From positions 1 through 64,000 of the forward strand of contig NZ_BAUJ01000021.1 in assembly GCF_000496695.1 (NCBI RefSeq): a DNA stretch of 64,000 bases, given 5' to 3'. This document shows, piece by piece, positions 20,000 to 53,003 of this stretch. The notes beneath the pieces are model-generated. The model had not been told where the DNA came from, did not search any database, and saw only the letters and a list, made by a program, of their open reading frames with translations. The position numbers and the translations under genes are program-made. Origin of the DNA: Vibrio halioticoli NBRC 102217 (GTDB lineage: Bacteria > Pseudomonadota > Gammaproteobacteria > Enterobacterales > Vibrionaceae). Numbering within the stretch: position 1 is the first letter of the stretch; every line of letters starts with the position of its first letter.

Positions 20000-20045
20000 T
20001 GGTGGGTCCGGGCGAACTCGAATCGCCGACCCCCGCCATGTCAAG
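20000..20045 (-). repeat. left attachment copy: 3' fragment of tRNA-Val
   Basis: 46 nt equal to the 3' part of a tRNA-Val from the anticodon loop to the encoded CCA. It is identical to the corresponding part of the tRNA at 55,399-55,475 and differs at two positions from the tRNA at 55,286-55,362. The rest of the tRNA is missing, so this is a displaced att copy, not a gene. Confidence 0.93.
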
Positions 20046-20148: not shown

Positions 20149-20168
20149 TGGACACAAATTGGTCACAA
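20149..20168 (+). repeat. putative integrase arm repeats, left end
   Basis: TGGACACAA at 20,149-20,157 and TGGTCACAA at 20,160-20,168, direct orientation, 11-bp period. The same 9-mers occur three times near the right end (55,091-55,122). The 250 bp between the tRNA fragment and the first gene hold nothing else recognisable. Confidence 0.7.
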
Positions 20169-20216: not shown

Positions 20217-20783
20217 ATGGATGAAATTCAAAGATTCAATGCAGGGTTGTTCGAAGACTCTGAACTTAAATTTATTGCCATCGATCAGTTGATTGGTGAT
20301 GACTTACTAGAGCAACTTCATCGTTCGGCAAATCCATTCTCGTTGCTGAGAACTCAGCCAGACAGGACATTCTCTAGCGACTATTTATGCAATTTACTGG
20401 CCATGCAATCGCCTATTATTGCTTATCGATTTAGGCACCATTATCGATATTTAGTTGGGGCATTTACTCTTGAAAAACTGAAAACCGCAGTAGCACAAAA
20501 ACACCTAGCGCCAGATCATAAAATCCCTGTCTTCGTTTTAAAAAAGAAACCGTCTGAGCGTACCAGGTTGAGAGTCATACAGTTCGAACTGATGGAAAAT
20601 CTACTCGATAAGTGCTTCGTTTCAAATACTAAAAAGATCCGTTTTTTACTTGAAAATTGGTTTACGAAAGACGCAGGTAAACGAAGTATATTTCAATCAA
20701 AAGAATGGCAAGCTCTGTATCCGAATATTACCTCAATTGAGGGGCTTAGTGGTTACCTTTCATTATCGAAAAAAAATGTTTAG
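20217..20783 (+). CDS. first protein of the left recombination trio (188 aa, unknown)
   Basis: A 188-residue basic, helix-rich cytoplasmic protein with no motif I can name. It starts about 170 bp from the left attachment fragment and is followed after 11 bp by a large recombinase-like gene, so it belongs to one transcription unit with the next two. The small-large-large layout recalls the GmtX/GmtY/GmtZ trio of gammaproteobacterial GMT islands, which are known from Vibrio. That link is made from organisation only and was not verified. It may be a DNA-binding accessory factor for integration or excision (inference). Confidence 0.72.
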   Translation: MDEIQRFNAGLFEDSELKFIAIDQLIGDDLLEQLHRSANPFSLLRTQPDRTFSSDYLCNLLAMQSPIIAYRFRHHYRYLVGAFTLEKLKTAVAQKHLAPDHKIPVFVLKKKPSERTRLRVIQFELMENLLDKCFVSNTKKIRFLLENWFTKDAGKRSIFQSKEWQALYPNITSIEGLSGYLSLSKKNV

Positions 20784-20794
20784 CTGGAGCTTCT

Positions 20795-23275
20795 ATGGAA
20801 CTGGTTAATGTCGAAAACCTTAAAAAATTGACACCTAAAAGTAATGACGTATCGTTACCTATATGGGTTGATTTGCTTAACGCGATAGAATGCCCCTCGA
20901 ACTTTCAATCCCTACAATTTGTTTTACATACTTTAGAAATTTCATACAGCATAAACCCTCCGCTTTTTTGTGAAACGTTTGCTGTGCCAAAGGAATTTGA
21001 TAGTTCATTCTTTGATTATTTTTCTAATATTAATTTTACAGATTTCCCTAACTATTACAGAGAATCTTTACCGGTTGGTTCAAAAAGTGATAGGCCAATT
21101 TTTGCCATTCTTTTTACTTTCTCATCACTGCTTACTCCTCATTTCGTTAAGCCATTGTTGTTGTTGCTCAACCATTATTACAAAAATGAGTCCCTCATCA
21201 ATCGACGTGACAAAAGTGAAGATGTCTTTAGAGCATTGAGATTGTTGTATCAAGATCCGCTATTTAAATGTGACTGTTTATTTGGAGATGACGTAAATGT
21301 TATAGCCCAGAAACTAGAAGATTATAAACAACAGTTGGCAGTCTTTGATGGTGATAGTGATCAACGCATACTGATCAAGTATGTTCGAGATTTGATTCAC
21401 TTTTGCCGACTTGATTGGTCTCAACCAGTGAGAAGGAAAAGAAAAACGAAGACTACTATGCGGTCTTCTTATAATAGAACTCGAGTCGAAAGAATCTATG
21501 GCTCTGAGGATCTGTATACCTACAAGTTAAAATCATTACCGTCTTCGATAGAAAGTAAAACAGAAGGAATTGCTGAGTCTGAGGATTACCCGCCACTTGC
21601 ATTTATTAAGACTAAGGCGTCTGAAGTGCCAAAGCCCATTTTTGAATTACCAGATAAAGCTGCTATCAAAGACGTTAAGAAAGACCGAGTGCAAAATTCA
21701 GCAATTCAGCGAGAGTCAAAAAAGTCGCATAATTTAATTCTAACGAGTAGAACCTTACTCCAATGCTATGAGATGGGGTTTTTATTGGATGAATTGCTCT
21801 CTCGAAGAAAGGGAAAAGTTAATGGTCTAGACAAGCAGTTCATCAGGGGCATTGCATTACTGTCTTTGGTGACTGGCCGACCTATTGAGCAAGTGGCTAA
21901 GCTGAAGTGTATTGATGTTGATAGTATTGAAGTTGAAGGGCTATACAAAAATCACGGACATTGGTATTTAAAAAGCTACCATGCAGCGACCGCCGAAAAC
22001 GGTCCGCAGCGAACTAATTCCAATTTATTACGAACGAACACGGAAGTGTATATACAGTTTCCTACTTGGATAAGTAATGTGTTGGATTTGTTAGCACTGA
22101 ACGCAGACGAAGAAACTGGCAAAGGTCACAAGGTCGACACGCTTAATAAAGCGATCCAACAATTAATAACTAGCTTGAACCGAAAACAGCACTGTCAGAT
22201 CAGTTTAAAAAAAATTAATTATCATCTAGTAAATTATGTCGTTGCATACGAGCAATTTGATCCAGTCATACTCGAGTGCTTAACAGGCAAACCCAGTTAC
22301 TACACTCGTTCTCCTCGTCATTACGCCTGGTATTCCAATGATATGATCAACCGTCATATTCAAACGTTATATGAAGATGCATTTTTGGTTGAAGCTGACA
22401 GCGCTTTACAGGATGGGCTCTACTCTTGGCCAGTAAGGAATGAGGTTGGGGTAGGCTCTCAATTCACACCGAAGCAGGACTCACTACGAACGTTAGTGAA
22501 ACACCTTCAATTACAACTTGGGGGTAGCCATACGTTTGACATGGCTAAGCGATTATCTTCTGCTATTGATTATCACAATGCTTATACGCTCTACACGCTG
22601 TATATGATGTTAAACGCGACGGGTTATAGGGCTGTCGGTAATCCTTTACCCAGTTTTAATCTTTTATTGAATCGTTACAGTGCATTGTGTATTTCGGATA
22701 AAGACAGTGTAGTCACGTTTGCGCACATGCGAGTCATAGCGTGTGCTCCTGTACTTACTGAGCAACTCAATCACTATCTTGATCACGTGCGAACCATGTC
22801 TCGATTGCTGTCGGTAGCACTCCCCAACAGTTCAGAACAATACAAAGATCAAGCATCACCGACTCAATTTATTGATTTGAAATCGAAAAATGAAAAGCTG
22901 AATTGGTTTATTACTACTAAGAACTCCAAAGGGAATGATGGGCTGTTTGTCTTTTTTGACCATACGGAGCAGGGCAAAATTAAAGCAACTAATGCTTACC
23001 CTAAGTCATTGAAACAACATTCTGAAGAACTGCCAAGTTTCCCTATGAACTTTGGACGTCACTATGTAAGGCTTTACTTGCAGGAAAAGCGGGTCAATCA
23101 AGAGCTAGTCAAATTTCAGTTAGGGCACTGGGTAGCAGGCGAAAATCCACTAGAGTTGTTTTCCACTTTTGACTTTAAAGAAGCGGTGAACACTCTATGT
23201 CCGATACTTGAACAAATGATGGGGGAGTTGGGTTGGCAAGCGATCCCCTCAGCGTTGACGAGAAAGCGTCTATGA
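20795..23275 (+). CDS. recombinase-like protein, catalytic site apparently incomplete
   Basis: An 826-residue protein whose C-terminal half resembles a tyrosine recombinase. It has TGRPIEQVAKL (first active-site Arg position), FGRHYVRLYL (the His-x-x-Arg box with altered order) and FQLGHWVAGENP (second His). Where the nucleophilic Tyr should follow, I see NPLELFSTFDF, with no Tyr at the usual spacing. It may be a structural partner rather than an active strand-cutting enzyme. The N-terminal half has basic patches (RRKRKTKTTMR). It starts 11 bp after the previous gene with GGAG upstream, and overlaps the next gene by four bases. Confidence 0.78.
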   Translation: MELVNVENLKKLTPKSNDVSLPIWVDLLNAIECPSNFQSLQFVLHTLEISYSINPPLFCETFAVPKEFDSSFFDYFSNINFTDFPNYYRESLPVGSKSDRPIFAILFTFSSLLTPHFVKPLLLLLNHYYKNESLINRRDKSEDVFRALRLLYQDPLFKCDCLFGDDVNVIAQKLEDYKQQLAVFDGDSDQRILIKYVRDLIHFCRLDWSQPVRRKRKTKTTMRSSYNRTRVERIYGSEDLYTYKLKSLPSSIESKTEGIAESEDYPPLAFIKTKASEVPKPIFELPDKAAIKDVKKDRVQNSAIQRESKKSHNLILTSRTLLQCYEMGFLLDELLSRRKGKVNGLDKQFIRGIALLSLVTGRPIEQVAKLKCIDVDSIEVEGLYKNHGHWYLKSYHAATAENGPQRTNSNLLRTNTEVYIQFPTWISNVLDLLALNADEETGKGHKVDTLNKAIQQLITSLNRKQHCQISLKKINYHLVNYVVAYEQFDPVILECLTGKPSYYTRSPRHYAWYSNDMINRHIQTLYEDAFLVEADSALQDGLYSWPVRNEVGVGSQFTPKQDSLRTLVKHLQLQLGGSHTFDMAKRLSSAIDYHNAYTLYTLYMMLNATGYRAVGNPLPSFNLLLNRYSALCISDKDSVVTFAHMRVIACAPVLTEQLNHYLDHVRTMSRLLSVALPNSSEQYKDQASPTQFIDLKSKNEKLNWFITTKNSKGNDGLFVFFDHTEQGKIKATNAYPKSLKQHSEELPSFPMNFGRHYVRLYLQEKRVNQELVKFQLGHWVAGENPLELFSTFDFKEAVNTLCPILEQMMGELGWQAIPSALTRKRL

Positions 23276-26200
23276 ATGAAGTACCTATGAAAAGCAAACT
23301 AGAATCAATTCCCTGTGATGGTCTCAAAGCCAAGTTTATTTCGGTTGCGAATGAAGAAATTGCGAACTACCTACAACTGAATCCAGTTAGAGATGATTCT
23401 GGCTCATTTCGCTCAAAGTGTATCAGTAAAGTTTATGAATTTACCGTTAAAATTGCTCGGCATATTGATGCCAATATCACTGCTTCTTCTCTTAACTCCA
23501 TTCAATCCAAGTTTCCAAAAAATCCAGAAGTTGAGCCAATATACCGTGATCTGCTGCGTTTGCTACTTGTTGAGATTGAAAAAGAAACGGGCATACGTGC
23601 GCCCAATATTGGAGAGAATGTATACATTGAACAGGAAGTCCCTCAGTTAACCCCCGATATATTTTTAAATTCTCAGTTAGCGAATAATATTTACGAGACT
23701 ATTGAGTCAGCGTCCTCACTACATAGCTACCTTGATTCTCCTCATCATCATGCTGGATTTTTAGTGCTTTGGCTGTGTTTAAAAGAAGGGATTGACCAAC
23801 AAAAAACCATTACTGATTTACTATGTCGCCCAGAGAGTAGGACGTTAATTAGTGGACACTGGTTCTTCTCAGCGGGTAAAAAACGTTATTGGCTATCGAC
23901 TCAAGCAGAGCTTTTGTTGCATCGCTGGTATGAATCTAATGACCGTCGTCGCCTGCTACTGTCAACAGTAGTCAATACTTATCTGGTTAACTGTGGTTTG
24001 TTACCTCGTCACACAAAGCTGAGTTTTATAGAACTTCGTCAAATGCTCAAGCTTGAATATGTCATGACTCGAAACGCTATGGAATATGGCTTAGCAGCAA
24101 GAAAAATTGATTCTACCTTCTTAGCAGAGCATGTGATGACTCGGCTCTTAAGTGACGTAAGGGTGAATGTGCAACGACAAAAAGAGCCCACATTGGCTAC
24201 AACGGTGCGGCAAACTCGAAGTTGGGACAGTGCCTTTTCATCGAGTTATCGGCAATTGCGACCAGACACTGATGATGTCTGTATCATGCAACAAACGACA
24301 GAAGAACAAATTACCGTAATTTCTCGAATTACCAATGTGCTAATCCGCACCAATCGTAAAAACAGCATTCGTATTCGCCAAAAACTCCTGACAGAACTCC
24401 ATCCTAAACTGCATAATCCGAGTGCAACTAAGAAGATGCCATGGGCTTGGTTGTTGCTATCTTGGCTGTACCACTTATTGAAAAATGGTGGAAAGAACAA
24501 ATCAACGTTAAGACTGGATACGATCAAAGCCTACGTAGACTATGTGGCGATGCCATTTATTGTGGAGTTTTCTGGTTGCAACCCAAATCTGATGGATAGT
24601 CTCGATTGGGCAGAGAAGTTAAATGATGTCATAGAGCGTATTTCATCGGTAACGAAGAAAGCCTATGTCGCCTATTTTGCAGAATATCTGGTAGAAAGTG
24701 CTCTAGTACCTAATCTCTGTCTTTCAGATATTGATGTTCCTGCTGCTCAACATAATGTTGATGCGAATGTCATCACTCAACATGAAGCCGATAGAATCAT
24801 AGAAGCTCTCAATGCATCGCAACACTCGAAAGCAAGTTTAGGTAAAATCATATTTTTATTGGCGTTTTATACTGGATTAAGAAGAAATGAAATTGCAGGG
24901 TTACAATTTAAAGATGTCTACCACTATAACGACAGAAATCATACTTTGCATGTCAGGCCAAATCGATACCGATTGTTGAAGTCAAAAGAAAGCTCCCGAA
25001 ATATCCCTATAGATGTATTAATTCCAAAGGACTTGCTAGAAGTCTTTATGGAGTACCTCTTTACGGCAAAGACTAAATTTATGGCTGAAGATACATCGAT
25101 ATTTCCTCACTTTGAACAGTCAGATATAGAAGAGGCATTTAGCTTCTTAACAAACGTTCTAAAAGGGGTGACTGGTGATGAGTCTATTCGCTTTCATCAT
25201 TGCAGACATTCATTTTGTAACTGGATGGTAGTCCAACTCTATTACAATGAGTTGACCAATAAGGAAGATATTGCATTCCTAAATCACCATTACTTTAGTG
25301 AACAAAGAAGTCACGAACTGAATCAACGACTCGGAATTACGAGATATTCTCGTAAGAAATTTTGGGCTATTGCAACATTGCTTGGTCATGCTTCACCCGC
25401 AACTACCGCTGCTTCTTATTTCCATCTCTCCGACTTTCTAAGGCGTAATCTCTTTGCCAATCATGTAGCTTCGGAAGCGTCACTACGACGTGTTTGGGGG
25501 CAGCGAATCTCTACAGATCCTTTTGGTCGAGTTACCCCTAAAGCAAATTTTAGCCAGCGATTGCTTCGGACTATGCCTACACAATCAGCGGTTGCGTTGC
25601 ATACAGAAGTGTTTGATATACAAACTCTAGAGAAACCTAAGTCTAGAAAACCTGAAGATGATCTGAGTTTAGAGCTTTGCTGGCGGGTGATTAGGCGCAG
25701 TGCTGAAGGTCATTCTTCAAACTCCATTTCAAAGGCTTTAGAGCTCTCTTTGAATACAGTACAGCTAATAATTGAGACAGAAGCTCACTTGACTGAACGC
25801 CTGCTTTCCAACTCAAAATATCAGGCGAGATCTTCTCTAAATTATGAAAATCTGAATCAGCCGAACATCAGTGTCTTGGGTGTGTTAATCCGGCGCTATA
25901 CAGAATCAGAAGTAAAGCTTAAAAAAGCAGTCCAGTTGCCAATGTTGTATTCATGTATCGAAAGCTTCATTGGTGCGAAGGACTCATTGATAAGAACGGA
26001 TAACAAAGACATGGCTTTAACGTTGTTACGCTTCTTGAAATTGATGGAGGTCGGTTTTTTTGAGATTAAGGTTAAGTGGTACATGGCTAATATATCAGTG
26101 ACCGACGCTAAAGAATTAACGCCTTACCTTGCACATGTAGATTACTGGATAAAAGCGATAGTCAAAAATGTAGAGTTACCTAAAGACTCGATTCAACTGG

Positions 26201-26457
26201 TGGTGCCAAAGCAGTTGGAAAGGTTCAAGCAACAATTTGAGGATAGGGCAACTACTGTATGCAGTGATGATGGCAGGTTTATAAGGTACAACTCACCAGG
26301 GACAATTTCGATACACTTTAAACAAACTAAATTTCATAGTGATCAAAGAAAGTCCCCAGAGACCTTACCAAGCATGCCACGACGAACAAAAGCTTTTGTG
26401 AGCTTTCTGAGGTTAGTGAAGACGTATTGGACCGTTAAGGAAGAAAAAAGCGAATAG
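23272..26457 (+). CDS. large tyrosine recombinase
   Basis: A 1061-residue recombinase with a complete active site: Arg537 in TGLRRNEIAG, His642 and Arg645 in FHHCRHSF, His706 in LLGHASPATT and the nucleophile Tyr716 in AASYFHLSDF. The catalytic domain therefore sits in the middle, with about 480 residues before it and 340 after, far longer than a phage integrase (~400). I use the ATG at 23,272, which overlaps the previous stop as ATGA, instead of the upstream TTG. With its two upstream partners it probably moved, or still moves, part of this island. Confidence 0.88.
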   Translation: MNEVPMKSKLESIPCDGLKAKFISVANEEIANYLQLNPVRDDSGSFRSKCISKVYEFTVKIARHIDANITASSLNSIQSKFPKNPEVEPIYRDLLRLLLVEIEKETGIRAPNIGENVYIEQEVPQLTPDIFLNSQLANNIYETIESASSLHSYLDSPHHHAGFLVLWLCLKEGIDQQKTITDLLCRPESRTLISGHWFFSAGKKRYWLSTQAELLLHRWYESNDRRRLLLSTVVNTYLVNCGLLPRHTKLSFIELRQMLKLEYVMTRNAMEYGLAARKIDSTFLAEHVMTRLLSDVRVNVQRQKEPTLATTVRQTRSWDSAFSSSYRQLRPDTDDVCIMQQTTEEQITVISRITNVLIRTNRKNSIRIRQKLLTELHPKLHNPSATKKMPWAWLLLSWLYHLLKNGGKNKSTLRLDTIKAYVDYVAMPFIVEFSGCNPNLMDSLDWAEKLNDVIERISSVTKKAYVAYFAEYLVESALVPNLCLSDIDVPAAQHNVDANVITQHEADRIIEALNASQHSKASLGKIIFLLAFYTGLRRNEIAGLQFKDVYHYNDRNHTLHVRPNRYRLLKSKESSRNIPIDVLIPKDLLEVFMEYLFTAKTKFMAEDTSIFPHFEQSDIEEAFSFLTNVLKGVTGDESIRFHHCRHSFCNWMVVQLYYNELTNKEDIAFLNHHYFSEQRSHELNQRLGITRYSRKKFWAIATLLGHASPATTAASYFHLSDFLRRNLFANHVASEASLRRVWGQRISTDPFGRVTPKANFSQRLLRTMPTQSAVALHTEVFDIQTLEKPKSRKPEDDLSLELCWRVIRRSAEGHSSNSISKALELSLNTVQLIIETEAHLTERLLSNSKYQARSSLNYENLNQPNISVLGVLIRRYTESEVKLKKAVQLPMLYSCIESFIGAKDSLIRTDNKDMALTLLRFLKLMEVGFFEIKVKWYMANISVTDAKELTPYLAHVDYWIKAIVKNVELPKDSIQLVVPKQLERFKQQFEDRATTVCSDDGRFIRYNSPGTISIHFKQTKFHSDQRKSPETLPSMPRRTKAFVSFLRLVKTYWTVKEEKSE

Positions 26458-26482
26458 GAAGCACCTAGGTTCTACATTTCAT

Positions 26483-26787
26483 GAGTTGGCTAGGAGTTAA
26501 GGCATAAAAATTGAAAAAGGACATTTGCTGAAGGGGCATGTTCATCTGTGTATCAGTGTCCCTCCAAAATATTCAGTATCTAATATCGTTGGCTACCTCA
26601 AAGGAAAAGTGCGATATCAATAGCTAAGAAGTTGTGAGGTAGGCAGAGAAATTTCAATGGTGAACATTTTGTGGCGAGGGGATACTTTGTTTCAATGGTA
26701 GGCTTAGACGAAGAGACAGTTCTTGAATATATACGGAGTCAAGAACAAGAAGATGAGCACCGAGAACAATTGAAATTAGAAATTTAG
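26483..26787 (+). pseudogene. degraded IS200/IS605-type TnpA fragment
   Basis: In one frame the DNA reads GIKIEKGHLLKGHVHLCIS, then VPPKYSVSNIVGYLKGK. After a one-base frameshift it continues to an in-frame TGA, then GEHFVARGYFVSMVG and ETVLEYIRSQE to a stop at 26,787. These are the HUH box (HVHL), the PPKYS segment and the GYFVS segment of Y1 HUH transposases of the IS200 group. The N-terminal third is missing, and a frameshift plus a stop disrupt the rest, so it is inactive. An imperfect hairpin with CCTCCAGCTTTGCCAGAGG downstream may be its right end. Confidence 0.75.
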
Positions 26788-27198
26788 CGCCTTGTGGTGC
26801 TTACCTAAGCTTAAGCCCTTAGAGAGCGTCACCCAACAAGCCTCCAGCTTTGCCAGAGGTCATTTAACTTTATGTCTATTTGAAATTGGTGCCTTTTTCT
26901 AATTATCTGCTAGATTATGCTCTGATTTTTGTCGCGTCGATGCTGAGGATGCTAATTAATAGACCAATGGGAGTTGCTCTATTAATTTCGTAACCTTACG
27001 AAATACCATTTCCGCATGTACTCAATACAATCCACCTCATCAGAATTATTTGCTACGTATAACCATGGCTTTGTTGCGTAGTTTCAACGGTAAATGCAGT
27101 AACCCAAGATTAACTGATTTACCAGTATTTATTATATCTGAAGCATATTCAGTAATATAGACAAACTGGGAACGGTATCGTTGTACCTGCGAACATAT

Positions 27199-27579
27199 CC
27201 TGAAATGAATGGTAAAACAATTAGTGAAATTACAATTTTATTTGAATGTCAGTATCGTTGGCTAGGCAATATTCGAGAGATTTGAAACATATTACACCTG
27301 GCTGTATTTTGGTCAAAATCGAATGTTATTACTGCAAAAGAAATAGAGCCTTCTCTATTAACGCAAGCCAAGTCAAACAACGAAAGAGTTGTTGTAGACA
27401 ATGTTGAGTTGCCTGCAATATAACTTAACTTATTGATGTGGTATAATAAATACCTTGTTTCGGAATTTGAGTTAGATGGTGATAATAAGAAAATAGTAGT
27501 TCAACTACTTGGGCTGTCAAGCCATCAAAATTTTCGTAATTGGGCCGAGAAAGCAAAAGCAGACCTCCCTAATATCTAA
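27199..27579 (+). pseudogene. remnant of a sigma-54-type AAA+ regulator (C-terminal part)
   Basis: One frame reads ECQYRWLGNIREI, a stop codon, then NILHLAVFWSKSNVITAKEI, which matches the W-x-GN(I/V)REL...NVI segment that ends the AAA+ core of sigma-54 activators. It runs to a stop at about 27,420. After a further interruption, a 47-codon frame (27,436-27,579) reads KKIVVQLLGLSSHQNFRNWAEK, which could be the terminal DNA-binding helix-turn-helix. The upstream part is missing or unrecognisable. It may once have controlled the adjoining operon. RtcR, a CARF-containing sigma-54 regulator, is one candidate ancestor (inference). Confidence 0.5.
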
Positions 27580-27867
27580 ATCATTTTGGTACACCTGTTA
27601 CGTTACTCTATATAAGGACATTGTTGGAATGAATAAATTTATGTGTTTATGTTGTTACAAGAGCAACGTATAACCTTCCAGGCTGATTGGCTAAAAGCTA
27701 AACCTGAAGAGTCATCCACTATTTAGGTTAATAGAACCTATGTAAATCATTCTCATGAATAGCGAGAAGGTAATGCCTTTTATCACTTCACATTTCGCTA
27801 TGCATTTATGAAATAGTTATTTTGATCAACCAATTAATATTGCTATTGGTGAAGAGGAAAATAAAAC

Positions 27868-28575
27868 ATGTTTGATCCCAAGAAATTTACAGTGCCAGCC
27901 GCAAAACCTCTCCCTGTCGTTCTGCTTCTGGATGTCAGCTACAGTATGTCTGGAGACAAAATCGAGAACCTTAACAAGGCTGTCGAGGATATGCTGGACA
28001 CCTTTGCGCAGGAGGAGAAGATGGAGACAGAGATTCTTGTTTCTGTCATCACTTTCGGTAACCAAGTGGAACTGCATGTTCCCTACACCAAGGCTTCTCA
28101 GGTGCAGTGGCAAGGTCTGCGGGCTAACGGTATGACCCCGATGGGAACCTCCCTCAAGATGGCTAAGGCCATGATCGAGGACAAGGAGACCACTCCGTCC
28201 CGAGCCTACCGCCCGACGATCGTTCTTGTTTCAGACGGGCAGCCTAATGACAGTTGGGAAAGGCCGCTGAAGGATTTCATTTCCGAAGGACGATCTTCCA
28301 AATGTGACCGCATGGCAATGGCTATCGGACGTGATGCGGATGAGACGGTTCTGAAACGTTTTATCGAGGGCACGCCACACGACCTTTTCTATGCAGAAAA
28401 TGCCGGGCAATTGCATGAGTTTTTCCAGCGAGTGACCATGTCGGTGACCATGCGTACCCAGTCAAAGACCCCGAACGTGGTACCGGCTCCGTCAGAGATC
28501 AAACTGGACGGTGGCAGTGTCAAGTCGGCTACAACTGAGCCAACCGCTTCGTCCGACGATGAAGGTTACTGGTAA
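27868..28575 (+). CDS. vWA (TerY-like) protein with intact MIDAS
   Basis: A 235-residue von Willebrand A domain protein, first gene of the main island operon. The metal-ion-dependent adhesion site is complete: DVSYS at residues 22-26, the Thr in NGMTPMGT and the Asp in LVSDGQPND. This is the TerY/YfbK-like bacterial form, intracellular with no signal peptide. The last ~45 residues are a disordered acidic/Ser/Thr tail that could be phosphorylated. It likely acts as a metal-dependent assembly platform. A GAGGAAA ribosome site precedes the ATG; 21 bp separate it from the next gene. Confidence 0.9.
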   Translation: MFDPKKFTVPAAKPLPVVLLLDVSYSMSGDKIENLNKAVEDMLDTFAQEEKMETEILVSVITFGNQVELHVPYTKASQVQWQGLRANGMTPMGTSLKMAKAMIEDKETTPSRAYRPTIVLVSDGQPNDSWERPLKDFISEGRSSKCDRMAMAIGRDADETVLKRFIEGTPHDLFYAENAGQLHEFFQRVTMSVTMRTQSKTPNVVPAPSEIKLDGGSVKSATTEPTASSDDEGYW

Positions 28576-28596
28576 ATAAAAATTTGGAGGTGAATC

Positions 28597-28866
28597 ATGC
28601 CACAGGCAATTGGCGACCCTGATGAACTTGACCGTTTCGCGCAATCTTTGACGCAGTTCATCGACACGTTGAATGACGCGGTTAACGGTTTGAATCATAG
28701 CTTTGGTGTCCTTGGGGATACTTGGCAGGATGAAAAGCGAGCGAGTTTTGAAGAGGACTATAACGCGCTGGTTCAGCAGCTTTCTCATTTTGAGGCGAAT
28801 GCATCGGAACAGGTTCCTTATCTTCACGCTCTGGCTTCACGTTTAAGAGATTATTTACAGAGTTAA
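28597..28866 (+). CDS. WXG100-like small helical protein
   Basis: An 89-residue protein with the size and pattern of WXG100/ESX proteins: two amphipathic helices joined by a turn with a central Trp (LGDTWQDEKRASFEED), though the strict WxG is W-Q-D here. In type VII systems such proteins are partners of FtsK/SpoIIIE-type ATPases, and this operon encodes such an ATPase four genes downstream. No signal peptide is present. It may be an adaptor that presents the following coiled-coil protein to the ATPase (inference). An excellent GGAGGTGA ribosome site precedes the start. Confidence 0.78.
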   Translation: MPQAIGDPDELDRFAQSLTQFIDTLNDAVNGLNHSFGVLGDTWQDEKRASFEEDYNALVQQLSHFEANASEQVPYLHALASRLRDYLQS

Positions 28867-28874
28867 GGTGGGGA

Positions 28875-30206
28875 ATGGCGTACGTATCCATTGAACAAGT
28901 TGAGAGTCTTGAGGAGGCAATTGCCGGACTTCAGTCGACCTACGACTCCATGGAAAGTGCCTGTCAGGTTCAGATTGCTGCTACTGAAGCCAAGTTGACC
29001 GAAGTACAGCAGGAGGCCGATAACAGCGCTCAACTTATGGATGCTTCGATGGAAGCCGAAATGGGGGCTGGGCAGCAACTGGAACAGGCTAATGAGCAGC
29101 TTTCTTCAGCTAATGAGCAGTTGAGTTCCGCTTATTTATCTCTATCCGCCTGCGAAGCGCGTGGGAGCTATAATGACGATGACAACAACTATGAACCGCC
29201 CAACTGTTCATCTGAAGAGGCTAACATAGCTGCCGCAGAATCAGCCGTCACAGAAGCAGCATCCGCTGTTAAGGCTGCTGAGGAAGCTTTGGAAGCTGCG
29301 AAAGACCACCGCATGCAGATGGAGCAGCGAAATGAAATGGCCCGGCAGTGTCTTGATATGGCAACTCAGCTGGCGGAAACAGTGCAAACGGAGTGTGCAG
29401 CTCGAATTGCCAGTGCTGCGGCTCACCTTGAAAGAGGAAAAGCCCGATTGGAAAGCGCCAAGGTAGCTCTCAACGCTTATCTCGATACGCACCCGCCAGC
29501 TGCGGACTTTTATGCATGGCTGAAGTGGACTCCGGACTCAAGTAAGCCGGTTACGCCAAAGGAGCTGCATTCGAGGCTGAATCTATCCGTTCAACAGCAG
29601 CGCTATTATTTTGAATATCTCACTGATCGTGATCCGGTATTCAGAGCCAAGATTGCGGACTACAGAAGCCAGCTCGAAGCCGCCAACGGTCCGGCTGAAA
29701 GGCATGCGGTTCAGCTTAAAATCCGCCGAAACCTGAGTGGCTACTGTGGCGAAAAAATTGTGGAACAGGCGCTGAGTCCGCTTGGACATAAAACGGACAC
29801 GCAGGCCCGGACCACATTTGAGGATGGTAGATTTACCAAAACTGACCTGATCATCGAAGATCTCAAAGTACCGGTTATTCTCGGTCGTGGTGAAGGTATG
29901 AGTGCTCCGACTGGAGGCTCTATCGCTATTGAAGTTAAATGCGGCCGGGCTTCGTACCTTTATTCTCAGAAAGATCACATGGTTTTCCAATCCGGCGGGC
30001 ATCAGGAAGCTAATGCATCGATGACGGTATGTTCACGCGACATCAAGGATTTAACTCCAGAACAGGAAAAAGAACTGCGTGAGGCCCTTCGGAGTGCCGG
30101 ATCGCCATTACTAGGCATGCTCCCGACAAAAGACGAGATCGACAAAGCCTCTTGGGACATAGTGAACGGTTCTAATGCAAATAACGGAGGAACTCTTGAA
30201 AATTAA
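28875..30206 (+). CDS. coiled-coil protein with PD-(D/E)XK-like C-terminus
   Basis: A 443-residue protein. Residues 1-215 are an Ala/Glu-rich coiled coil broken by a short acidic loop containing Cys (YNDDDNNYEPPNCSS). Residues ~240-430 look like a restriction-endonuclease fold, with Asp324 in TKTDLII and Glu353-x-Lys355 in IAIEVKCG, followed by KDHMVFQSGGHQ. This is a plausible metal-dependent nuclease. Helical head plus nuclease tail, right after a WXG100-like gene, mimics secreted-toxin architecture. Nothing points to secretion here, so an internal effector or structural subunit is equally possible. It lies 8 bp after the previous gene. Confidence 0.75.
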   Translation: MAYVSIEQVESLEEAIAGLQSTYDSMESACQVQIAATEAKLTEVQQEADNSAQLMDASMEAEMGAGQQLEQANEQLSSANEQLSSAYLSLSACEARGSYNDDDNNYEPPNCSSEEANIAAAESAVTEAASAVKAAEEALEAAKDHRMQMEQRNEMARQCLDMATQLAETVQTECAARIASAAAHLERGKARLESAKVALNAYLDTHPPAADFYAWLKWTPDSSKPVTPKELHSRLNLSVQQQRYYFEYLTDRDPVFRAKIADYRSQLEAANGPAERHAVQLKIRRNLSGYCGEKIVEQALSPLGHKTDTQARTTFEDGRFTKTDLIIEDLKVPVILGRGEGMSAPTGGSIAIEVKCGRASYLYSQKDHMVFQSGGHQEANASMTVCSRDIKDLTPEQEKELREALRSAGSPLLGMLPTKDEIDKASWDIVNGSNANNGGTLEN

Positions 30207-30573
30207 GATCGCTCTGATCCCAAGTGAACGCACCAGCAAAGCTCAGGATCTTTCTTCCAAGCTTCAGAATGCTATGGAGTCAGGTGAGATGAGTGCTGTT
30301 GATAAGCTCACGGAAGAACTGTTCTCGTTAACGGATAGTGAGTATTCCCTGTCCTTACCGGAAGAATACTGGCACCAGCTAATTGAAAAGGTTAGATGCT
30401 CTGATGACGATTTCAAGTCCGACTACATTATGTCCAAGCTGCAACTCGAGACGATTATTGTAGCTGGTGTAGCTGAATCATTTGCGGATGTTTTAGGGGT
30501 TATTGAACAGGCATTAAAGGCTGATGGTATCGTCCTTCAGCTTCCATTTGAAGAAGAGAATACCTATGTTTGA
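30196..30573 (+). CDS. small operon protein of unknown function (125 aa)
   Basis: An acidic, helical protein of about 125 residues that I do not recognise. I prefer the TTG at 30,196 (reading MKIKIALIPSER) because a strong GGAGG lies five bases before it; the ATG at 30,175 would lack such a site and would lengthen the overlap with the previous gene. The segments LSSKLQNAMESGEMSAVDKL and YIMSKLQLETIIVAGV suggest a compact helical bundle. It overlaps genes on both sides by 8-11 bases, so it is translationally coupled and probably part of the same complex as the FtsK-type ATPase. Confidence 0.7.
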   Translation: MKIKIALIPSERTSKAQDLSSKLQNAMESGEMSAVDKLTEELFSLTDSEYSLSLPEEYWHQLIEKVRCSDDDFKSDYIMSKLQLETIIVAGVAESFADVLGVIEQALKADGIVLQLPFEEENTYV

Positions 30574-30787
30574 TGATCTATTTAATGTGACTTCACAACA
30601 GATGGTCAAATTTTCCGACACCGTCAGAGACGAGTTTGGTCAGTCTATTGTCTCAGACGTATTCGAGCCCCTTTTGCAGGACATCTCCGACCTTCAGCAA
30701 GTGGGAGAATTGTTTCAGACCCGAGCCGCCGAGATTGATCAGTTAACTGGAGAGGTGCTATCGATAGGAAGAATGTGTCATGAGTAA
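30566..30787 (+). CDS. small helical operon protein (73 aa)
   Basis: A 73-residue helical protein starting MFDDLFNVTSQQMVKFSD, with no recognised domain. The ATG at 30,566 overlaps the previous gene by eight bases and its 3' end overlaps the ATPase gene by eight bases; I discarded 14 upstream codons of the longer frame as antecedent overlap. Its size and helical content resemble a second WXG100-like or adaptor protein, but the central Trp is absent. Function is unknown; the context suggests a subunit of the ATPase complex. Confidence 0.65.
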   Translation: MFDDLFNVTSQQMVKFSDTVRDEFGQSIVSDVFEPLLQDISDLQQVGELFQTRAAEIDQLTGEVLSIGRMCHE

Positions 30788-33700
30788 CAGCCGTAAAAAC
30801 AGGGACTCCATGCCTAAACGTCTGTTCGATGCCGTTGGCGCAATGAATAAGGCGATTCTAAGGAAGGAAGATACTTACCACCAGCTTCAAACTGAACTGA
30901 AGCAATCGGAGCAGGACTGCAACAGAGCTATAGGAAATCTCCGGGCTGTCAGCGAATGTGTAGAAAGAGGCGAACTGGCTGCGTTGCATGATAAAGAGAC
31001 AAAGTTGCAAAAGGATCTGCAATCGCTAAACAATGAGATCCGCATCGTAGAGGATCATATAAAGCAGGTTGAAAAATCCATTTCCGACCTTGCGAATGAT
31101 AAGGACAGGCTTGACCGTGAGATCAGCCAGCGCTCCACCTTAATTTCAATCATAAAATATGTATTTGGTGATGCTGAACGAGAGGAATCTGAAAAAATCC
31201 TGAGAGAGATTAAAAAGAATGAGCATGGCAAAGATGATTTAATCAAAACCAGCTCCAAACTCAGCTCTCGAAAGGCTAGTTTGGAGAATCGGCAGAATGA
31301 CCTGAAAGTTGAGCTTGCAGGTATCCAGACCAAAATTAAGCGATTGAGTGATTCCAAACTCGCTGTAGTCAGAAGACGAAACGACGCGCTGAATTCTCTC
31401 AAGTCAAAAAAAGAGCAGATTCGCGAGAGAAAACATCGGGCGCACGAGGAGTTTGAGAAGAAATGGGTTTCGGCCCTGAAGAATCTTGATGACCTATGCA
31501 AAAGGGTCCGCCTGCGTCAGCCGCATCTGAATGAGTTAGTAGCCGAAAATATCAATACGGGCACCATTTTCCCTGACGCTCTGGCATTTGGGCGCATGTA
31601 CCTTACCTATCAGAACTGGAAAGGTTATATCCCACGGCTGATTCCTTTTCCTTTTAAGACATCGTTCTGGTTACCCGACCAGACTACAGGGCATCGGTTG
31701 ATTCACCAGCTGATGCTTCGGCTGATGCACTGCTTGCCGGTCTGCAATGTTGAAATTACCGCTGCAGATCCGCTGAGATTGGGCACTTCTCTGGACCCGT
31801 TTCTTTCCCTGTTGAATGTAAAACGGCTCTTTCCCGAGCAGCGATTGCTGACCCGGTCGGACGAACTGGAAAATGCTCTGGCCCGGTTAACGGATTATGT
31901 CGAGGATCTGCTTCAGAATAAATTTAAGGGAGAGCTCAAGAGCTGGTCCGTCTACAATGAGGTAAACAGCAGCAATCCCATACCATATAAACTGTTGCTC
32001 ATTTTTGGAGTGCCGGAACAGTTGACGGACAAAAGCCTCTGGTACCTTGGACGCCTTCTGGAACACGGCCCTATCTGTGGCGTTCTTCCTGTTTTGACCA
32101 TTGATGAAAGTCGGCTGGAGGACCGCAAGTTTACGGGGCTGCGCACCGCGATAGACAAATATGCTAAGAGAATGGATTCCATTGTTCCAGCAGAGATACT
32201 GACCAAGCATGTCTCTGAAATCAATGTTGTGGAGGAACAGGAGTTCTGGCTTGGACGTTCTGAGCTGACCGATTTTCTGGCATCTATATCTGACCGATAT
32301 GAACAGAGCGCGAAATTCAGCAAAAGCCTCACTGACCTCTGGTGCAATTCGGACTACTGGAGTCACGACGCTGTTCAGGGTGTACAGGTTCCGATCGGCT
32401 GGACTTCGGATGGCGAGATCGTTCATTTCTCTATCGGCGGGGTGAATACAGAGCACCATGTTCTTCTGGCGGGGCGTTCAGGCTCTGGAAAATCGAACCT
32501 GCTTCATGTTCTGATTCATAGCCTCTGCCACACGTATTCACCTTCGGAGTTGAATATCTACCTGCTGGATTACAAGCAGGGTACAGAATTCAGTGTTTAT
32601 GCTTCCCCTCCGCTTCCTCAGGCAAAACTGGTGGCTACAGAGAGTGATCCTGAATACGGGGTAACTGTTCTGGCGCATTTGACGGAGGAGATTGAAAAAC
32701 GGGCTCAGGAGTTCAAAAGCCGGTCTGTCCGCGACTTTTATGAATACAGGGAATCTTCAGTAACCGATCTCCCGCGTGTCTTGCTGATTATTGATGAGTT
32801 TCAGATCCTGTTTTCTGAGGGGCGGCAAGTGGCAGCTCCCGCAGAGAAAATGTTGAACAAGCTGCTGAGGCAAGGACGGGCCTACGGCATACATGTACTG
32901 CTGGCCACCCAGACACTGAAAGGAATCCAGTCTCTTTCAATGGGCCAGTTGATAAGCCAAATCGGCTGCCGGATTGCCCTTGCCTGCAGCGAGGAAGATT
33001 CCGCGATGATTCTTGGTAACAGCAACTGGGAGGCTTCCAAATTGAGTTGCCCACCGGAGGGCATCATTAACAATTCCAACGGGGCAAAATCGGAAAATCA
33101 ACGGTTTCTGATTCCATTTGCCGATAGTCGGCTGTGCAAGGATCACATTACCAAGATTACTCAGTTCGCAGACCAACGTGGTTACTGCAGCTCAACAAGA
33201 ATATTCAACGGCTCGCGTCTGCCGGAAATGCCTACAGCTGCTTGGTTCAAGTCAAAAAGCCATGAGGCGGTGCAACTTCACCTTGGTGAACGTTTGAGTT
33301 TTGAAGCTGAGCTGTTTTCACTGACATTGGTTAACCGACCGTCATCGAATTTACTTATATCCGGCTATAGCGATGCAATCCACGACGGTCTGCTCGCCTC
33401 CATCCTTCAAAGTTTGGGTGCTCAGAATGGCATCGATGAAATTATCTACTTGAACGGACGCTCCATAGTGCCGGTGGGGGCATCAAAATATCTCGATGGT
33501 GCCGGAAGTAGACCTATTTCAAAGCACGAGAGTGTTCCCGCATTGAATCTGGCCGAGATCTCCAAGGAATTACAACAATCAAAAAGAATTGTGATTATTG
33601 ACGGACTGGATTCGGCCAAGGAATTTCACTCCGGTCCAGCGAATTTTAGACCGGTTAAGAAAGATGAGCTACCTTCCCCACAAGAGAGCCTGAAGAAAAT

Positions 33701-33965
33701 TCTGGAAGACGGTCCGCTACAAGGGACATTTGTTATTGCATTTGTGGATAACTGGAAGCGCTGTAACTCATCGTGCAAGGACCTTCTTGGGTTCTTTGAG
33801 ATGCGTGTCGGATTCTGCATGAATGAAGATGATGCTGGCTCATTCGTCAGTGGAGCAATAGGAAAACTTAAAGGGCTTGAAACAGACAATCGCGCTGTCT
33901 TTGCCGATCGCTTGAAAAATCAGGTTAGTTGGGTACGTCCATACATAAATGGGGAAAGTTTATGA
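30780..33965 (+). CDS. FtsK/SpoIIIE-type ATPase with coiled-coil head
   Basis: A 1061-residue ATPase. Residues ~20-235 are a charged coiled coil, ~240-520 a region of unknown fold, and ~530-800 the FtsK/SpoIIIE/EssC motor: Walker A at residues 565-572 (GRSGSGKS), LLDYKQGTEF, Walker B VLLIIDEFQIL near 668, and LLRQGRAYGIHVLLATQ. A C-terminal domain of ~250 residues ends the protein. No transmembrane segment is seen, unlike FtsK or EssC, so it is a soluble motor, possibly moving DNA or protein inside the cell. The SMC-like coil before the motor is unusual for an FtsK relative. It overlaps neighbours on both sides. Confidence 0.88.
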   Translation: MSNSRKNRDSMPKRLFDAVGAMNKAILRKEDTYHQLQTELKQSEQDCNRAIGNLRAVSECVERGELAALHDKETKLQKDLQSLNNEIRIVEDHIKQVEKSISDLANDKDRLDREISQRSTLISIIKYVFGDAEREESEKILREIKKNEHGKDDLIKTSSKLSSRKASLENRQNDLKVELAGIQTKIKRLSDSKLAVVRRRNDALNSLKSKKEQIRERKHRAHEEFEKKWVSALKNLDDLCKRVRLRQPHLNELVAENINTGTIFPDALAFGRMYLTYQNWKGYIPRLIPFPFKTSFWLPDQTTGHRLIHQLMLRLMHCLPVCNVEITAADPLRLGTSLDPFLSLLNVKRLFPEQRLLTRSDELENALARLTDYVEDLLQNKFKGELKSWSVYNEVNSSNPIPYKLLLIFGVPEQLTDKSLWYLGRLLEHGPICGVLPVLTIDESRLEDRKFTGLRTAIDKYAKRMDSIVPAEILTKHVSEINVVEEQEFWLGRSELTDFLASISDRYEQSAKFSKSLTDLWCNSDYWSHDAVQGVQVPIGWTSDGEIVHFSIGGVNTEHHVLLAGRSGSGKSNLLHVLIHSLCHTYSPSELNIYLLDYKQGTEFSVYASPPLPQAKLVATESDPEYGVTVLAHLTEEIEKRAQEFKSRSVRDFYEYRESSVTDLPRVLLIIDEFQILFSEGRQVAAPAEKMLNKLLRQGRAYGIHVLLATQTLKGIQSLSMGQLISQIGCRIALACSEEDSAMILGNSNWEASKLSCPPEGIINNSNGAKSENQRFLIPFADSRLCKDHITKITQFADQRGYCSSTRIFNGSRLPEMPTAAWFKSKSHEAVQLHLGERLSFEAELFSLTLVNRPSSNLLISGYSDAIHDGLLASILQSLGAQNGIDEIIYLNGRSIVPVGASKYLDGAGSRPISKHESVPALNLAEISKELQQSKRIVIIDGLDSAKEFHSGPANFRPVKKDELPSPQESLKKILEDGPLQGTFVIAFVDNWKRCNSSCKDLLGFFEMRVGFCMNEDDAGSFVSGAIGKLKGLETDNRAVFADRLKNQVSWVRPYINGESL

Positions 33966-35695
33966 AGAAATATTTAATGACATGGTACGGAATGACTGAT
34001 TTTAGGGCCTCACTCGGGCTGGAACGGACAACCGGCCCGGTTCTTGGAGCTTTGCTGGCGGAAGATTACACCAACGCAGTAATCCTTGGTTTCACACATC
34101 CAGATAAAAGAGAAAACAAAGCCTATGAATTTCAGCAAAAAACAGCAGAGATCGAGGGTTTTGATTCTGCAACCGTGAGAAAGTTTCTCGATTTGTTTTC
34201 TAATACAGCGGAAGCGCATAATCATTTTAATCAGTGGCTTCAAAAGCAACTTCGGGATGCAGGTAAAACGGTTGATGTGCATTTCCACCCTGTGGAACTG
34301 ACGCATCTCAATGACACGGAGGGCATCTATGAGGCCGCGACTCAATCCCTGAATACTGTTGCCGCATCTGAAGGTGAAAAGCTCGCTACGCTCTACCTGA
34401 GTCCGGGGACTCCGGTTATGGCTTTCGTTTGGGCTTTTGCGGCTCTGAGGCACCCGACGCTAAAGAAACGTCTTATCGCATCTTCTCAGCCCGGGAGACC
34501 TCCTGAGAGTGTTTTGCTCCCAAAAGAGTGGATGGAATGGCACGCAAAAGCCATTCCTGAAAAAACTGGAGAAATTGAGCACTTTGATGCGATATTTCAT
34601 TTGTTCGGAGAGCAAAGGATGCCTAGTCTGCTTGGAATCAATCAATTCCAAAGTCAGGATCATGTATTTGTAAATTCGACAGACTTTCCTGCCAACGTGA
34701 TGAAGCAGTTCATTGCCGAAAGTGGGTTTTATGAACTCTCCGTCGATCCTTATGATCCTGAAAAAGTGAAAACTGAAATACTCAATATTGTTGAAGCTCT
34801 GCCATCAAATTATCGTATAGGATTTAATTTAACTGGAGGTACTAAGCTTATGTATGCAGGTGCATTGGCTGCATGTAGAAAAGTGAATGGGATACCTTTT
34901 TATTTTGACAATCGAAGCAATAAAACTATTTTTCTGGACACCTTTTATTCAATACCAACAAAAACCATAAACTCAGTATCCACATTTATTCAATTAAATG
35001 GAAATGATTTGTGGGTATCAAAGCATGGTGATTGGGAAGATATCCCTGGTGTAAACAGCTCTGAAAGGGATAAGTTAACTTCGGAGCTTTGGTTAGCTCG
35101 CTCAAAAATTTCGAAGCTGTATAAACATCTTGTTAAGTTTAATGACTCTGATGAACCTTTTAATGTTTCTGATGAGGGAATTTCGGCTCAGTTATTGAGT
35201 GACCGTCAAGCTGAAATTAAGATAAACAATAAGCTTTTCAAATTTGAAAAGTGGCCGAATTTTGCTCGTTATTTATCTGGAGGTTGGTTTGAAGAGTATA
35301 CGTATCGTCAATTAGAGCCCTTGTTAAATTCAGGACTAATAAAAGATCTTAAGATAGGTTTGGAAGTGTCTGTTGATGATGGGAAAGGTTATTCATTTTT
35401 ATCTGAATCTGAACTGTACCAAGAGTTAGATATCACATTTACCGATGGTCGTTCGCTTTATGTTGTCGAATGTAAAGCAGGAGGTGTTAAAAGTGATCAA
35501 ATAATGAAATTACAGAACATCGTTAGATATTTTGGTGGAATGTCTGGACATGGAATATTAGCTTGCTGTTTTTCGCCCAAAAACAAAGTTGTTCGTAAAA
35601 AAATTGAAGATTCTAGCAATATTCATGAAGTTGCAGGTAGCTCTTTGCAACACCAAATTAAGTCAATTGTTCTCAAAAATAATAAGTGTCTATAA
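33962..35695 (+). CDS. CARF-type protein with PD-(D/E)XK nuclease tail (Card1/Can2-like)
   Basis: A 577-residue protein. The N-terminus (about 1-200) has an RtcR-like CARF pattern with LYLSPGTPVMAFVWAF. Residues ~225-320 carry the DUF1887-type motif NLTGGTKLM (Asn289-Lys295). The C-terminus is a restriction-type nuclease: Gly-Gly-Trp-Phe-Glu-Glu, Asp490 in ELDITF, and Glu503-Cys-Lys505 in VVECKAGG. Card1/Can2 nucleases of type III CRISPR systems are activated by cyclic tetra-adenylate bound between CARF domains and cut nucleic acids. No CRISPR locus is present here. The ATG overlaps the ATPase stop (ATGA). The last third is clearly more AT-rich than the first. Confidence 0.83.
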   Translation: MKKYLMTWYGMTDFRASLGLERTTGPVLGALLAEDYTNAVILGFTHPDKRENKAYEFQQKTAEIEGFDSATVRKFLDLFSNTAEAHNHFNQWLQKQLRDAGKTVDVHFHPVELTHLNDTEGIYEAATQSLNTVAASEGEKLATLYLSPGTPVMAFVWAFAALRHPTLKKRLIASSQPGRPPESVLLPKEWMEWHAKAIPEKTGEIEHFDAIFHLFGEQRMPSLLGINQFQSQDHVFVNSTDFPANVMKQFIAESGFYELSVDPYDPEKVKTEILNIVEALPSNYRIGFNLTGGTKLMYAGALAACRKVNGIPFYFDNRSNKTIFLDTFYSIPTKTINSVSTFIQLNGNDLWVSKHGDWEDIPGVNSSERDKLTSELWLARSKISKLYKHLVKFNDSDEPFNVSDEGISAQLLSDRQAEIKINNKLFKFEKWPNFARYLSGGWFEEYTYRQLEPLLNSGLIKDLKIGLEVSVDDGKGYSFLSESELYQELDITFTDGRSLYVVECKAGGVKSDQIMKLQNIVRYFGGMSGHGILACCFSPKNKVVRKKIEDSSNIHEVAGSSLQHQIKSIVLKNNKCL

Positions 35696-36283
35696 ATGAA
35701 TAATAGCATCTATATAATTGTTCAGTCCTCAGGTCGTATGAACGAGATGGGGAAAATTCATCTGCTGCAGAATCTGTGTCGTTATGCGACTCAGTTAAGG
35801 CTGATAGATCAGGAAAAATACTCAGACTCTGACATCCGTTTTTATCAATGGGCACAGAATGTTTCTGAGGCCGCTTTGCAAAGCGACGGGGATATCCCTG
35901 CTTTAAACGCTGAAGGCTCATCGAATCTATGTGCTATCTCCGATTTTCTGTCCCAGTACCTGAATGATACTGGGAGATTAATGGTTCTCATTTTGTCTGA
36001 CGGCAATTTCCCAAATTCAGACATCGTAAGCTTTCAGAAGCAACTAGGCACATTCACCGACCTGATCATTCGAACTGTTGCAGTCGGTGCTGATGCTGAC
36101 TTGTTGAAGTTGAAGAAAATTTCCACAAACAGGACTGTTTACCTTTCGGAGAATATAGCGTCAGCGATAGACGGTATAATCTTTGGTTCGGATGAGCCGT
36201 TAATCACGCCATCATCCACAGCTCAGATTCTGCAATCCGCACCACCTGAAACAGAAGAACTAGAGGAAGATTGGGATGCTTGA
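35696..36283 (+). CDS. vWA-like protein with degenerate MIDAS (TerY-P triad member)
   Basis: A 195-residue von Willebrand A-fold protein, first member of a vWA-phosphatase-kinase triad. The DxSxS motif is replaced by Gln10-Ser-Ser12-Gly-Arg14, so canonical metal binding looks lost, although the later LILSDGNFPNSD segment remains. Its closest plan is TerY. It starts at the base after the upstream stop and overlaps the phosphatase start by eight bases. Together with the intact vWA protein at 27,868 it gives the operon two unequal vWA proteins. The C-terminus is acidic (TEELEEDWDA) and may be a docking or phosphorylation tail. Confidence 0.83.
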   Translation: MNNSIYIIVQSSGRMNEMGKIHLLQNLCRYATQLRLIDQEKYSDSDIRFYQWAQNVSEAALQSDGDIPALNAEGSSNLCAISDFLSQYLNDTGRLMVLILSDGNFPNSDIVSFQKQLGTFTDLIIRTVAVGADADLLKLKKISTNRTVYLSENIASAIDGIIFGSDEPLITPSSTAQILQSAPPETEELEEDWDA

Positions 36284-37004
36284 GCAACTCTGGAATAGCT
36301 GGGGTGCTACAGTAGTCGGGCCCCTACATGTTAAAGCTGGAATTCCAAATCAAGATTCTTGGATGGTACGCCGGTATAAATGGGGGAATGTCGTTGTTGT
36401 ATCCGATGGCCTAGGCAGCAAGGCACATTCAGATCACGGTTCAAAAGCCGCTTGTCTTGCTATGTTTGAGGCAGCCAAGAGCTACCATAATACCCCCGAT
36501 GCCAATATCGTTGATATTTTAAGGCTCATTCATGCCAACTGGCTTGTGAAAATAGCTCCGTACTCTTCAAGAGATTGTTCGGCTACATGCCTTTTCGCCA
36601 TCCAGAACGAAGGAATAATCACTCTTGGACGCCTTGGTGACGGAATGATTGTCGCCCTTGGAGAAACTGGCGAAAACGATCTTATTCTCTGTGATAACAA
36701 ACAGGATTCCTTCTCAAACTACACAAACAGTCTTCAACAGGAGTTTAAGCCAGATCAGTGGGAAATCGCAACGATTGAAAGCACGGCATGCTGCGCAGTT
36801 GTGCTATGCACCGATGGTATATCCGATGACTTATTACCTGAAAAGCAGATGATTTTTGCGCAGGAACTCCATTCCACTTATGCAGACCTGGAAACGGAGG
36901 AAAGAAAGAGGGATCTTAAACGTTGGCTCAATGAATGGCCGGTTCCGGGACATTCTGATGACAAGACGATCGCATGTCTGTTTAAGAAAGGAGGCTTCCA
37001 ATGA
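36276..37004 (+). CDS. PP2C-family protein phosphatase
   Basis: A 242-residue PP2C/PPM serine-threonine phosphatase. The metal-binding motifs are present: VVSDGLGS, RLGDGMIVAL and LCTDGISDD, along with the SGKVGCSATCLFA-type strand (CSATCLFAI). It removes phosphates placed by the adjacent kinase, in the standard pattern for TerY-P triads. It sits between the vWA gene (8-base overlap) and the kinase gene (4-base ATGA overlap). The final catalytic Asp is likely in HSDDKTIACLF. No targeting signal is seen, so it acts in the cytoplasm. Confidence 0.9.
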   Translation: MLEQLWNSWGATVVGPLHVKAGIPNQDSWMVRRYKWGNVVVVSDGLGSKAHSDHGSKAACLAMFEAAKSYHNTPDANIVDILRLIHANWLVKIAPYSSRDCSATCLFAIQNEGIITLGRLGDGMIVALGETGENDLILCDNKQDSFSNYTNSLQQEFKPDQWEIATIESTACCAVVLCTDGISDDLLPEKQMIFAQELHSTYADLETEERKRDLKRWLNEWPVPGHSDDKTIACLFKKGGFQ

Positions 37005-47038: not shown

Positions 47039-47041
47039 GTT

Positions 47042-52691: not shown

Positions 52692-52913
52692 TCAATTAGG
52701 AATATACTCAACCACATCCTCAATTTTACAATCGAAGAATTTACAAATGGCTTCAATTGTAGTCATGCTTGTATTGTACCCTTTATTATTGGCAATTTTA
52801 GACATAGCAGAACTTTGAACTCCGACATGCTCAGCAAGAAAGCTCAAAGTGACTTTTCTTCCGTTGTATAGAGGTTTTGCCTCTATTAATTCCTTTATCT
52901 TATATCTAATCAA
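52692..52913 (-). CDS. Xre/Cro-family regulator of the integration module
   Basis: A small helix-turn-helix protein of about 73 residues with the Xre pattern: VTLSFLAEHVGVQSSAMSKI for helices 2-3 and TIEAICKFFDCKIEDVVEY for the last helices. I start it at the TTG at 52,913 (MIRYKIKEL), which fits family N-termini; the longer frame to 53,003 or beyond runs into the excisionase ribosome site. It is divergent from the excisionase-integrase genes, and such a regulator typically represses that promoter (inference). The intergenic ~90 bp holds the shared control region. Confidence 0.75.
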   Translation of the reverse strand: MIRYKIKELIEAKPLYNGRKVTLSFLAEHVGVQSSAMSKIANNKGYNTSMTTIEAICKFFDCKIEDVVEYIPN

Positions 52914-53003
52914 ATTATTATTCTTTACTGATATAAAAACCGTCTTGATAAGAACTATTTTGACTCCTATTATTTGTCTTGTGAAGACAAAAAAGGAGGT
53001 CAT

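Follow-up and report, generated by a model that had tools for sequence, protein, structure and literature searches.

Three adjacent genes, here called X, Y and Z, occupy positions 20,217 to 26,457 of a 64,000-nt stretch of Vibrio halioticoli NBRC 102217 (contig NZ_BAUJ01000021.1, positions 1 to 64,000; hereafter the window). The trio is not a free-standing element. It forms one end of a tRNA-targeted integrase island, and the integrase lies at the other end, 26.7 kb away and just inside an intact tRNA-Val gene, an arrangement that the original prediction on this DNA had missed. Our preferred view of the trio is that of an intrinsic module at the end of a defence island that targets a tRNA, with the integrase as its partner. 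We lean, with some reservation, towards the further reading that X-Y-Z and the integrase constitute one four-part recombination machine of the 35.3-kb tRNA-Val(GAC) island, which is split to opposite ends on integration.

The trio consists of three uninterrupted open reading frames (ORFs) on the plus strand, and their predicted positions and sizes were confirmed: X (20217..20783, 188 aa), Y (20795..23275, 826 aa) and Z (23272..26457, 1061 aa). The ATG of Z at 23272 overlaps the stop codon of Y in the sequence ATGA, and an alternative TTG start at 23233 would give a Z protein of 1074 aa. On the left side, blastn detects a 46-bp 3' half of tRNA-Val(GAC) (20000..20045, minus strand), the left attachment-site half, which lies 171 bp from the start of X and whose homology ends in the anticodon loop. 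On the right side, an intact tRNA-Val(GAC) (55286..55362, minus strand; ARAGORN and blastn) represents the right attachment site and is the first of three copies, the other two extending up to 55590. The half and the intact tRNA run in the same direction and delimit an interval of 35.3 kb. The integrase beside the intact tRNA (53128..54450, plus strand) has 440 aa and contains Arm-DNA-bind_2 and Phage_integrase domains. The island shows the features of a tRNA-targeted integrase island, with the 3' part of the tRNA repeated directly at its two ends and an integrase at one of them. Two TGGNCAC repeats, 11 bp apart, lie between the tRNA half and X (20149..20166, plus strand), and three more lie at the right end (55091..55120, plus strand); nowhere else in the window are they as dense as in the right cluster, and the left cluster is equalled by one position in the cargo, near 28.3 kb. 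In the 5173 bp of sequence next to the tRNA matches of 21 loci, 14 TGGNCAC sites occur (2.7 per kb), compared to a background of 0.41 per kb, and these repeats may serve as arm sites of the integrase.

The two-ended layout recurs in other Vibrio genomes. We found 22 Y loci in 21 genomes, of which 21 were mapped, a remnant in G045 being left out; a locus in G042 that begins at a contig end was also set aside, leaving 20 testable loci. A tRNA half of at least 44 bp is present upstream of Y at 16 of the 20 loci (4 tRNA-Val and 12 tRNA-Gly), and one locus of G150 (contig C33) has a half of 17 bp. The distance from the half to Y is nearly constant, 707-782 bp at 12 of the 16 loci, with shorter distances of 173 bp in G014 and 257 bp in G244. 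Among 39 control ORFs, three have a tRNA half upstream, in each case a half that had already been counted and on whose other side the ORF lies. The distance from the half to an intact tRNA in the same direction is 35.3 kb in the window's genome (G000), 58.3 kb in G013, 37.5 kb in G014, 44.6 kb on G150 contig C33 and about 45 kb on G150 contig C11. Related islands at tRNA-Val and tRNA-Gly keep the two-ended plan with other cargo, and both versions are found in a single genome, G150 (contigs C11 and C33). No description of this two-ended layout was recognised in the literature searched, a scope outside which most subscription papers fall.

The presence of Y is associated with the integrase. Relatives of the integrase fall into three groups, with 66-80%, 44-49% and 38-41% identity. 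Among the loci fetched, an intact tRNA-Val is found in the short flank of 4 of 10 first-group members, tRNA-Gly(TCC) in 15 of 15 second-group members, and no tRNA in 5 of 5 third-group members. Of 26 genomes with an integrase of the first or second group, 17 have Y, compared to 4 of the 200 genomes that lack one (Fisher p 1e-15; counted by hand, with two sets of 226 genomes taken as the same and with a partial integrase match in G200). At 14 Y loci such an integrase is on the same contig, and in four genomes it is on another contig. The divergence of Z correlates with that of the integrase (r 0.86, 16 pairs, with shared host ancestry left in), and the 11 tRNA-Gly pairs alone give r 0.52 (p 0.002). 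The tRNA-Val site and right-flank genes of the window are also present in G015, where they hold a broken integrase, 81% identical to that of the window. An empty site was looked for and not found.

Apart from the shared ancestry within the correlation, several observations weigh against the four-part reading. The five tRNA-Val pairs alone give r 0.60 with p 0.07, and 4 of the 21 Y-bearing genomes have no first- or second-group integrase (G017, where Y is on a plasmid, G044, G202 and G045). Three of the 20 loci have no tRNA half (the G017 plasmid, G189 and G078), and G078 does so in the presence of an intact tRNA-Gly and an integrase. The half lies 1582 bp from Y in G200 and 1602 bp from Y on G150 contig C11 (a 46-bp half, with a shorter second match at 780 bp). 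The plan is less clear in G031 and G235, where 8-11 kb separate the integrase from the tRNA half and the next array of intact tRNA-Val genes lies 60 and 95 kb away. A TGGNCAC site occurs at 11 of the 21 trio-side ends and is absent from the other 10, and X is not recognised in G182, G189, G014, G244 and G078. The Y protein adds two points: the first of the two domains described below rests on structure (hhalign 0.3-18%; 0.3% against the integrase group), and Foldseek gives Y weak matches, the best at E 0.059 and none reaching 0.001. Finally, the reading is built on layout and sequence comparison. The copies in G017, G044 and G202, together with a gene layout that the original prediction likened to Gamma-Mobile-Trio (GMT) modules, would suit a mobile element of GMT type that is independent and has ends of its own, the tRNA integrase then belonging to a neighbouring or host island. 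We consider this unlikely: the distance to the tRNA half is near-constant at 12 of the 16 loci, Z and the integrase diverge in step, and G044 and G202 still carry a tRNA-Gly half.

Z has the features of a complete tyrosine recombinase. It matches Pfam Phage_integrase (E 3.6e-14), and R537, K570, R645, H646, H706 and Y716 are found in all 27 aligned sequences, the window's included, while residue 642 is His in 18 of them (H642 in the window) and Tyr in 9. The full Arg-His-Arg-His-Tyr set predicted for the third protein is borne out: Z has R537, K570, H642, R645, H706 and Y716, invariant at every position except 642. In a structure model of Z (pLDDT 77.3, pTM 0.52), residues 385-725 match whole recombinases, such as 2a3v (Z-score 14.3, root-mean-square deviation (rmsd) 5.5, 261 residues aligned). 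Z also has a long N-terminal part, and weak helix-turn-helix matches were found by Pfam near residues 810-850 of the 1074-aa form. No hhalign match was obtained for the N-terminal part, which VIA-align barely covered; a duplicated domain there is a guess. By its residues, Z looks like an active large recombinase. This bears on a second alternative, that X-Y-Z acts only as a directionality or regulatory factor which binds the attachment site and controls the integrase, the active site of Z being unused in movement. The trio does adjoin the attachment site, and no excisionase family match was found among the window genes scanned, but R, K, R, H and Y are kept in 27 of 27 Z sequences, as expected if catalysis is selected, and we regard this alternative as improbable to much the same degree as an independent element. 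Less probable still is that the trio itself belongs to the cargo and processes DNA in defence or transfer, for example as a relaxase-like nickase, and not in integration: the cargo of the island is defence-like and PMC9345347 brings up a relaxase function for the large recombinase of a different element, but the trio stays beside the tRNA half while the cargo varies between islands.

Y apparently comprises two tandem catalytic-type recombinase domains, as its structure model suggests. In the AlphaFold model (mean pLDDT 71.1, pTM 0.58), residues 504-813 align with the archaeal Xer recombinase 4a8e (VIA-align Z-score 15.0, rmsd 2.7, 170 residues), and residues 317-509 align with residues 131-323 of Cre (1f44; Z-score 9.8, rmsd 4.5, 155 residues). 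We also looked for sequence proof of both domains, and only the second is supported, with an hhalign value of 85% (E 6e-6) against the integrase group; a search of PDB sequences with the Y profile gave no match at E 1 or below. In an alignment of 24 Y sequences (those of 650-1300 aa out of 29 loci), the second domain has R612, K636, R646, N752, R755 and H778 in 24 of 24, while the tyrosine at its nucleophile position is not conserved (F in 16, Y in 5, H in 3). The first domain shows the complementary pattern: the R-K-R-H set is lost, and Tyr510 is present in 24 of 24. Since the last aligned pair is Y residue 509 and Cre residue 323, Tyr510 is placed beside Cre residue 324, which we take to be the Cre nucleophile, Tyr324, so that Tyr510 adjoins the nucleophile position. 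The second protein had been predicted to keep the recombinase folds without the tyrosine. With two catalytic-type domains and an invariant Tyr510, this description holds for the second domain and fails for the first. Overall, Y is an apparently inactive large recombinase.

On the four-part reading, the ends of the island would join into a circle, in which the integrase and X-Y-Z would flank the rejoined attachment site. As neighbours in the circle, they would form one four-gene locus that integration splits. The integrase would exchange strands at the anticodon-loop core, where Y and Z would form a mixed complex, Z cleaving DNA and Y supplying subunits that grip DNA and do not cleave it. Such a complex could make the exchange one-sided and help excision or copy-out, and X might be a small DNA-binding accessory. 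A bolder and rather doubtful extension is that the two Y domains build a composite active site, the tyrosine of one entering the pocket of its neighbour, within a Y-Z complex that is part of a four-part machine with X and the far-end integrase, split across the island ends; the fused proteins of loci L026 and L027 (see below) would then be one-chain versions. The machinery that spreads defence islands is often unclear, and a recurring module in which a tRNA integrase is paired with two large recombinases, one active and one pseudo-active, offers a testable candidate for island excision or copying. The trio-integrase module can also serve as a marker for finding such islands, and the complementary residue losses of Y are relevant to possible ways in which tyrosine recombinases share an active site.

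The trio itself is conserved beyond the window. The order X-Y-Z is found again in G031, G235 and G150, which answers the call of the original prediction for a test of conserved synteny, and because it recurs at 35-54% identity of Y and Z to those of the window, the trio is more than a chance arrangement. X, expected to be small and of no known family, gave no reliable family match in NCBIfam, Pfam and further family scans, and neither did Y; no recombinase match was found for X in the family scans. X is conserved in the tRNA-Val trios. A Y-Z pair also occurs on a short contig of G042. A second large group of trios has an X of about 192 aa, a Y of about 750 aa and a Z of about 1000 aa; its Y shares 18-19% identity with the window's Y, and similarity between the X proteins of tRNA-Val and tRNA-Gly trios is undetectable. 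A ten-row Y profile matches 21 of 226 genomes of the genus at E 1e-10, and at 1e-8 it matches 25 of 394 genomes of the order and 9 of 369 of the class; Z matches, mostly partial and distant, were found in 26 of 148 related genomes (counts for relatives take in G000). A three-row Y profile found one locus in a genome collection, on a contig of Vibrio anguillarum DSM 21597, and gave 59 pattern matches in viral contigs, none of which was confirmed. No phage was found with one tRNA-Gly-type Y as the query, and no annotated E. coli relative was matched with the L030 Z gene. Among plasmid records, one has a window-type Y, 13 have a tRNA-Gly-type Y and 207 have a partial Z match. The Vibrio cyclitrophicus plasmid pLMG21359 (L042) carries a trio. 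On Acinetobacter plasmids, Z matches that are distant and partial (30% of the query) are frequent (L041 and 205 records), and the single record opened has a similar three-gene order. Single ORFs matching both the Y and Z profiles lie beside tRNA-Met in L026 (6072-11360, 1762 aa) and L027 (5678-11080, 1800 aa), where Y and Z appear fused. Further large-recombinase modules adjoin integrases of a third group in L035 and L037, and their partner protein has box II and GH motifs with no evident tyrosine.

The trio is separated from the cargo by a 1.4-kb spacer without a clear gene (26458..27867). The cargo (27868..50983, plus strand) encodes VWA, WXG100, an FtsK-like ATPase, a Card1-like CARF-PDDEXK protein, PP2C, a kinase, an SF1 helicase, a PDC-M26A-like protein and DUF2357-CSD, and this same-strand run may be an undescribed defence system. 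Cargo scans, which covered the window island and that of G150 contig C11, agree with the prediction that such trios mark defence islands: the window cargo is defence-like by Pfam and PADLOC matches (among them a CARF-PDDEXK protein, PADLOC E 3e-276), and ten proteins scanned on the G150 island include matches to ZorB, ZorE, TmtA, DruE and DruH, to type I specificity and methyltransferase subunits and to a GajB-like helicase, with two of the ten unmatched at 1e-20. Among these are Zorya-, Druantia-, Tmt- and type I restriction-like genes. A CARF protein (Cas_NE0113) follows the window cargo (51388..52518, plus strand), and similar proteins lie near a trio or trio remnant in L075 (1313-2440) and L024 (10308-11438, judged by eye from the first residues), three genomes in all. 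The integrase is preceded by a Cro/CI-type regulator (HTH_26; 52692..53012, minus strand), to which ORFs close to the integrase of G031 and of G235 are related, and is followed by a small conserved ORF (54447..54776, plus strand) that is also found in G235 and G015.

We compared the island with known systems. A RIT (recombinase in trio) element has three adjacent recombinases, and the trio differs in that X has no recombinase match. The GMT islands of Mahata et al. 2024 reportedly carry a module of three genes, for one small protein and two recombinase-like ones, and by this description the same order is found in G000, G031, G235 and G150; Vibrio hosts, mobile islands and cargo with defence genes are further likenesses. 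NCBIfam release 20, which may hold no GMT model, gave no GMT-named match, neither for the trio nor for a further 18 recombinase-type proteins from related loci. The work on GMT islands (doi 10.1038/s41564-024-01840-5) is cited in PMC12715929 and PMC12039261. In GInt islands, according to PMC5385486, ginABCD is one operon with three integrase-like genes; by description, GInt islands are similar in that several recombinase-like genes lie together with one for a small protein at one end of the cargo, whereas the present module has three genes, two of them integrase-like, with the integrase 26.7 kb away. SE elements are defined, in PMC10214605, by a four-gene cluster intA-tfp-intB-srap at one end, with imperfect inverted terminal repeats of 13-19 bp and a 6-bp footprint. 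The SE genes form one cluster, whereas no ordinary integrase adjoins the trio and that of the window lies at the far end of the island. Compared to the SE-type proteins of pAQU1 (one cluster, assigned by its layout next to blaGMA-1), Y and Z give hhalign values of 0.3% and 0.8% and no hmmsearch match. The part list of the island resembles that of SE elements in kind, not in detectable sequence: both are gammaproteobacterial, and both combine an ordinary and a large recombinase with a recombinase fold that lacks the catalytic set and with a small auxiliary protein.

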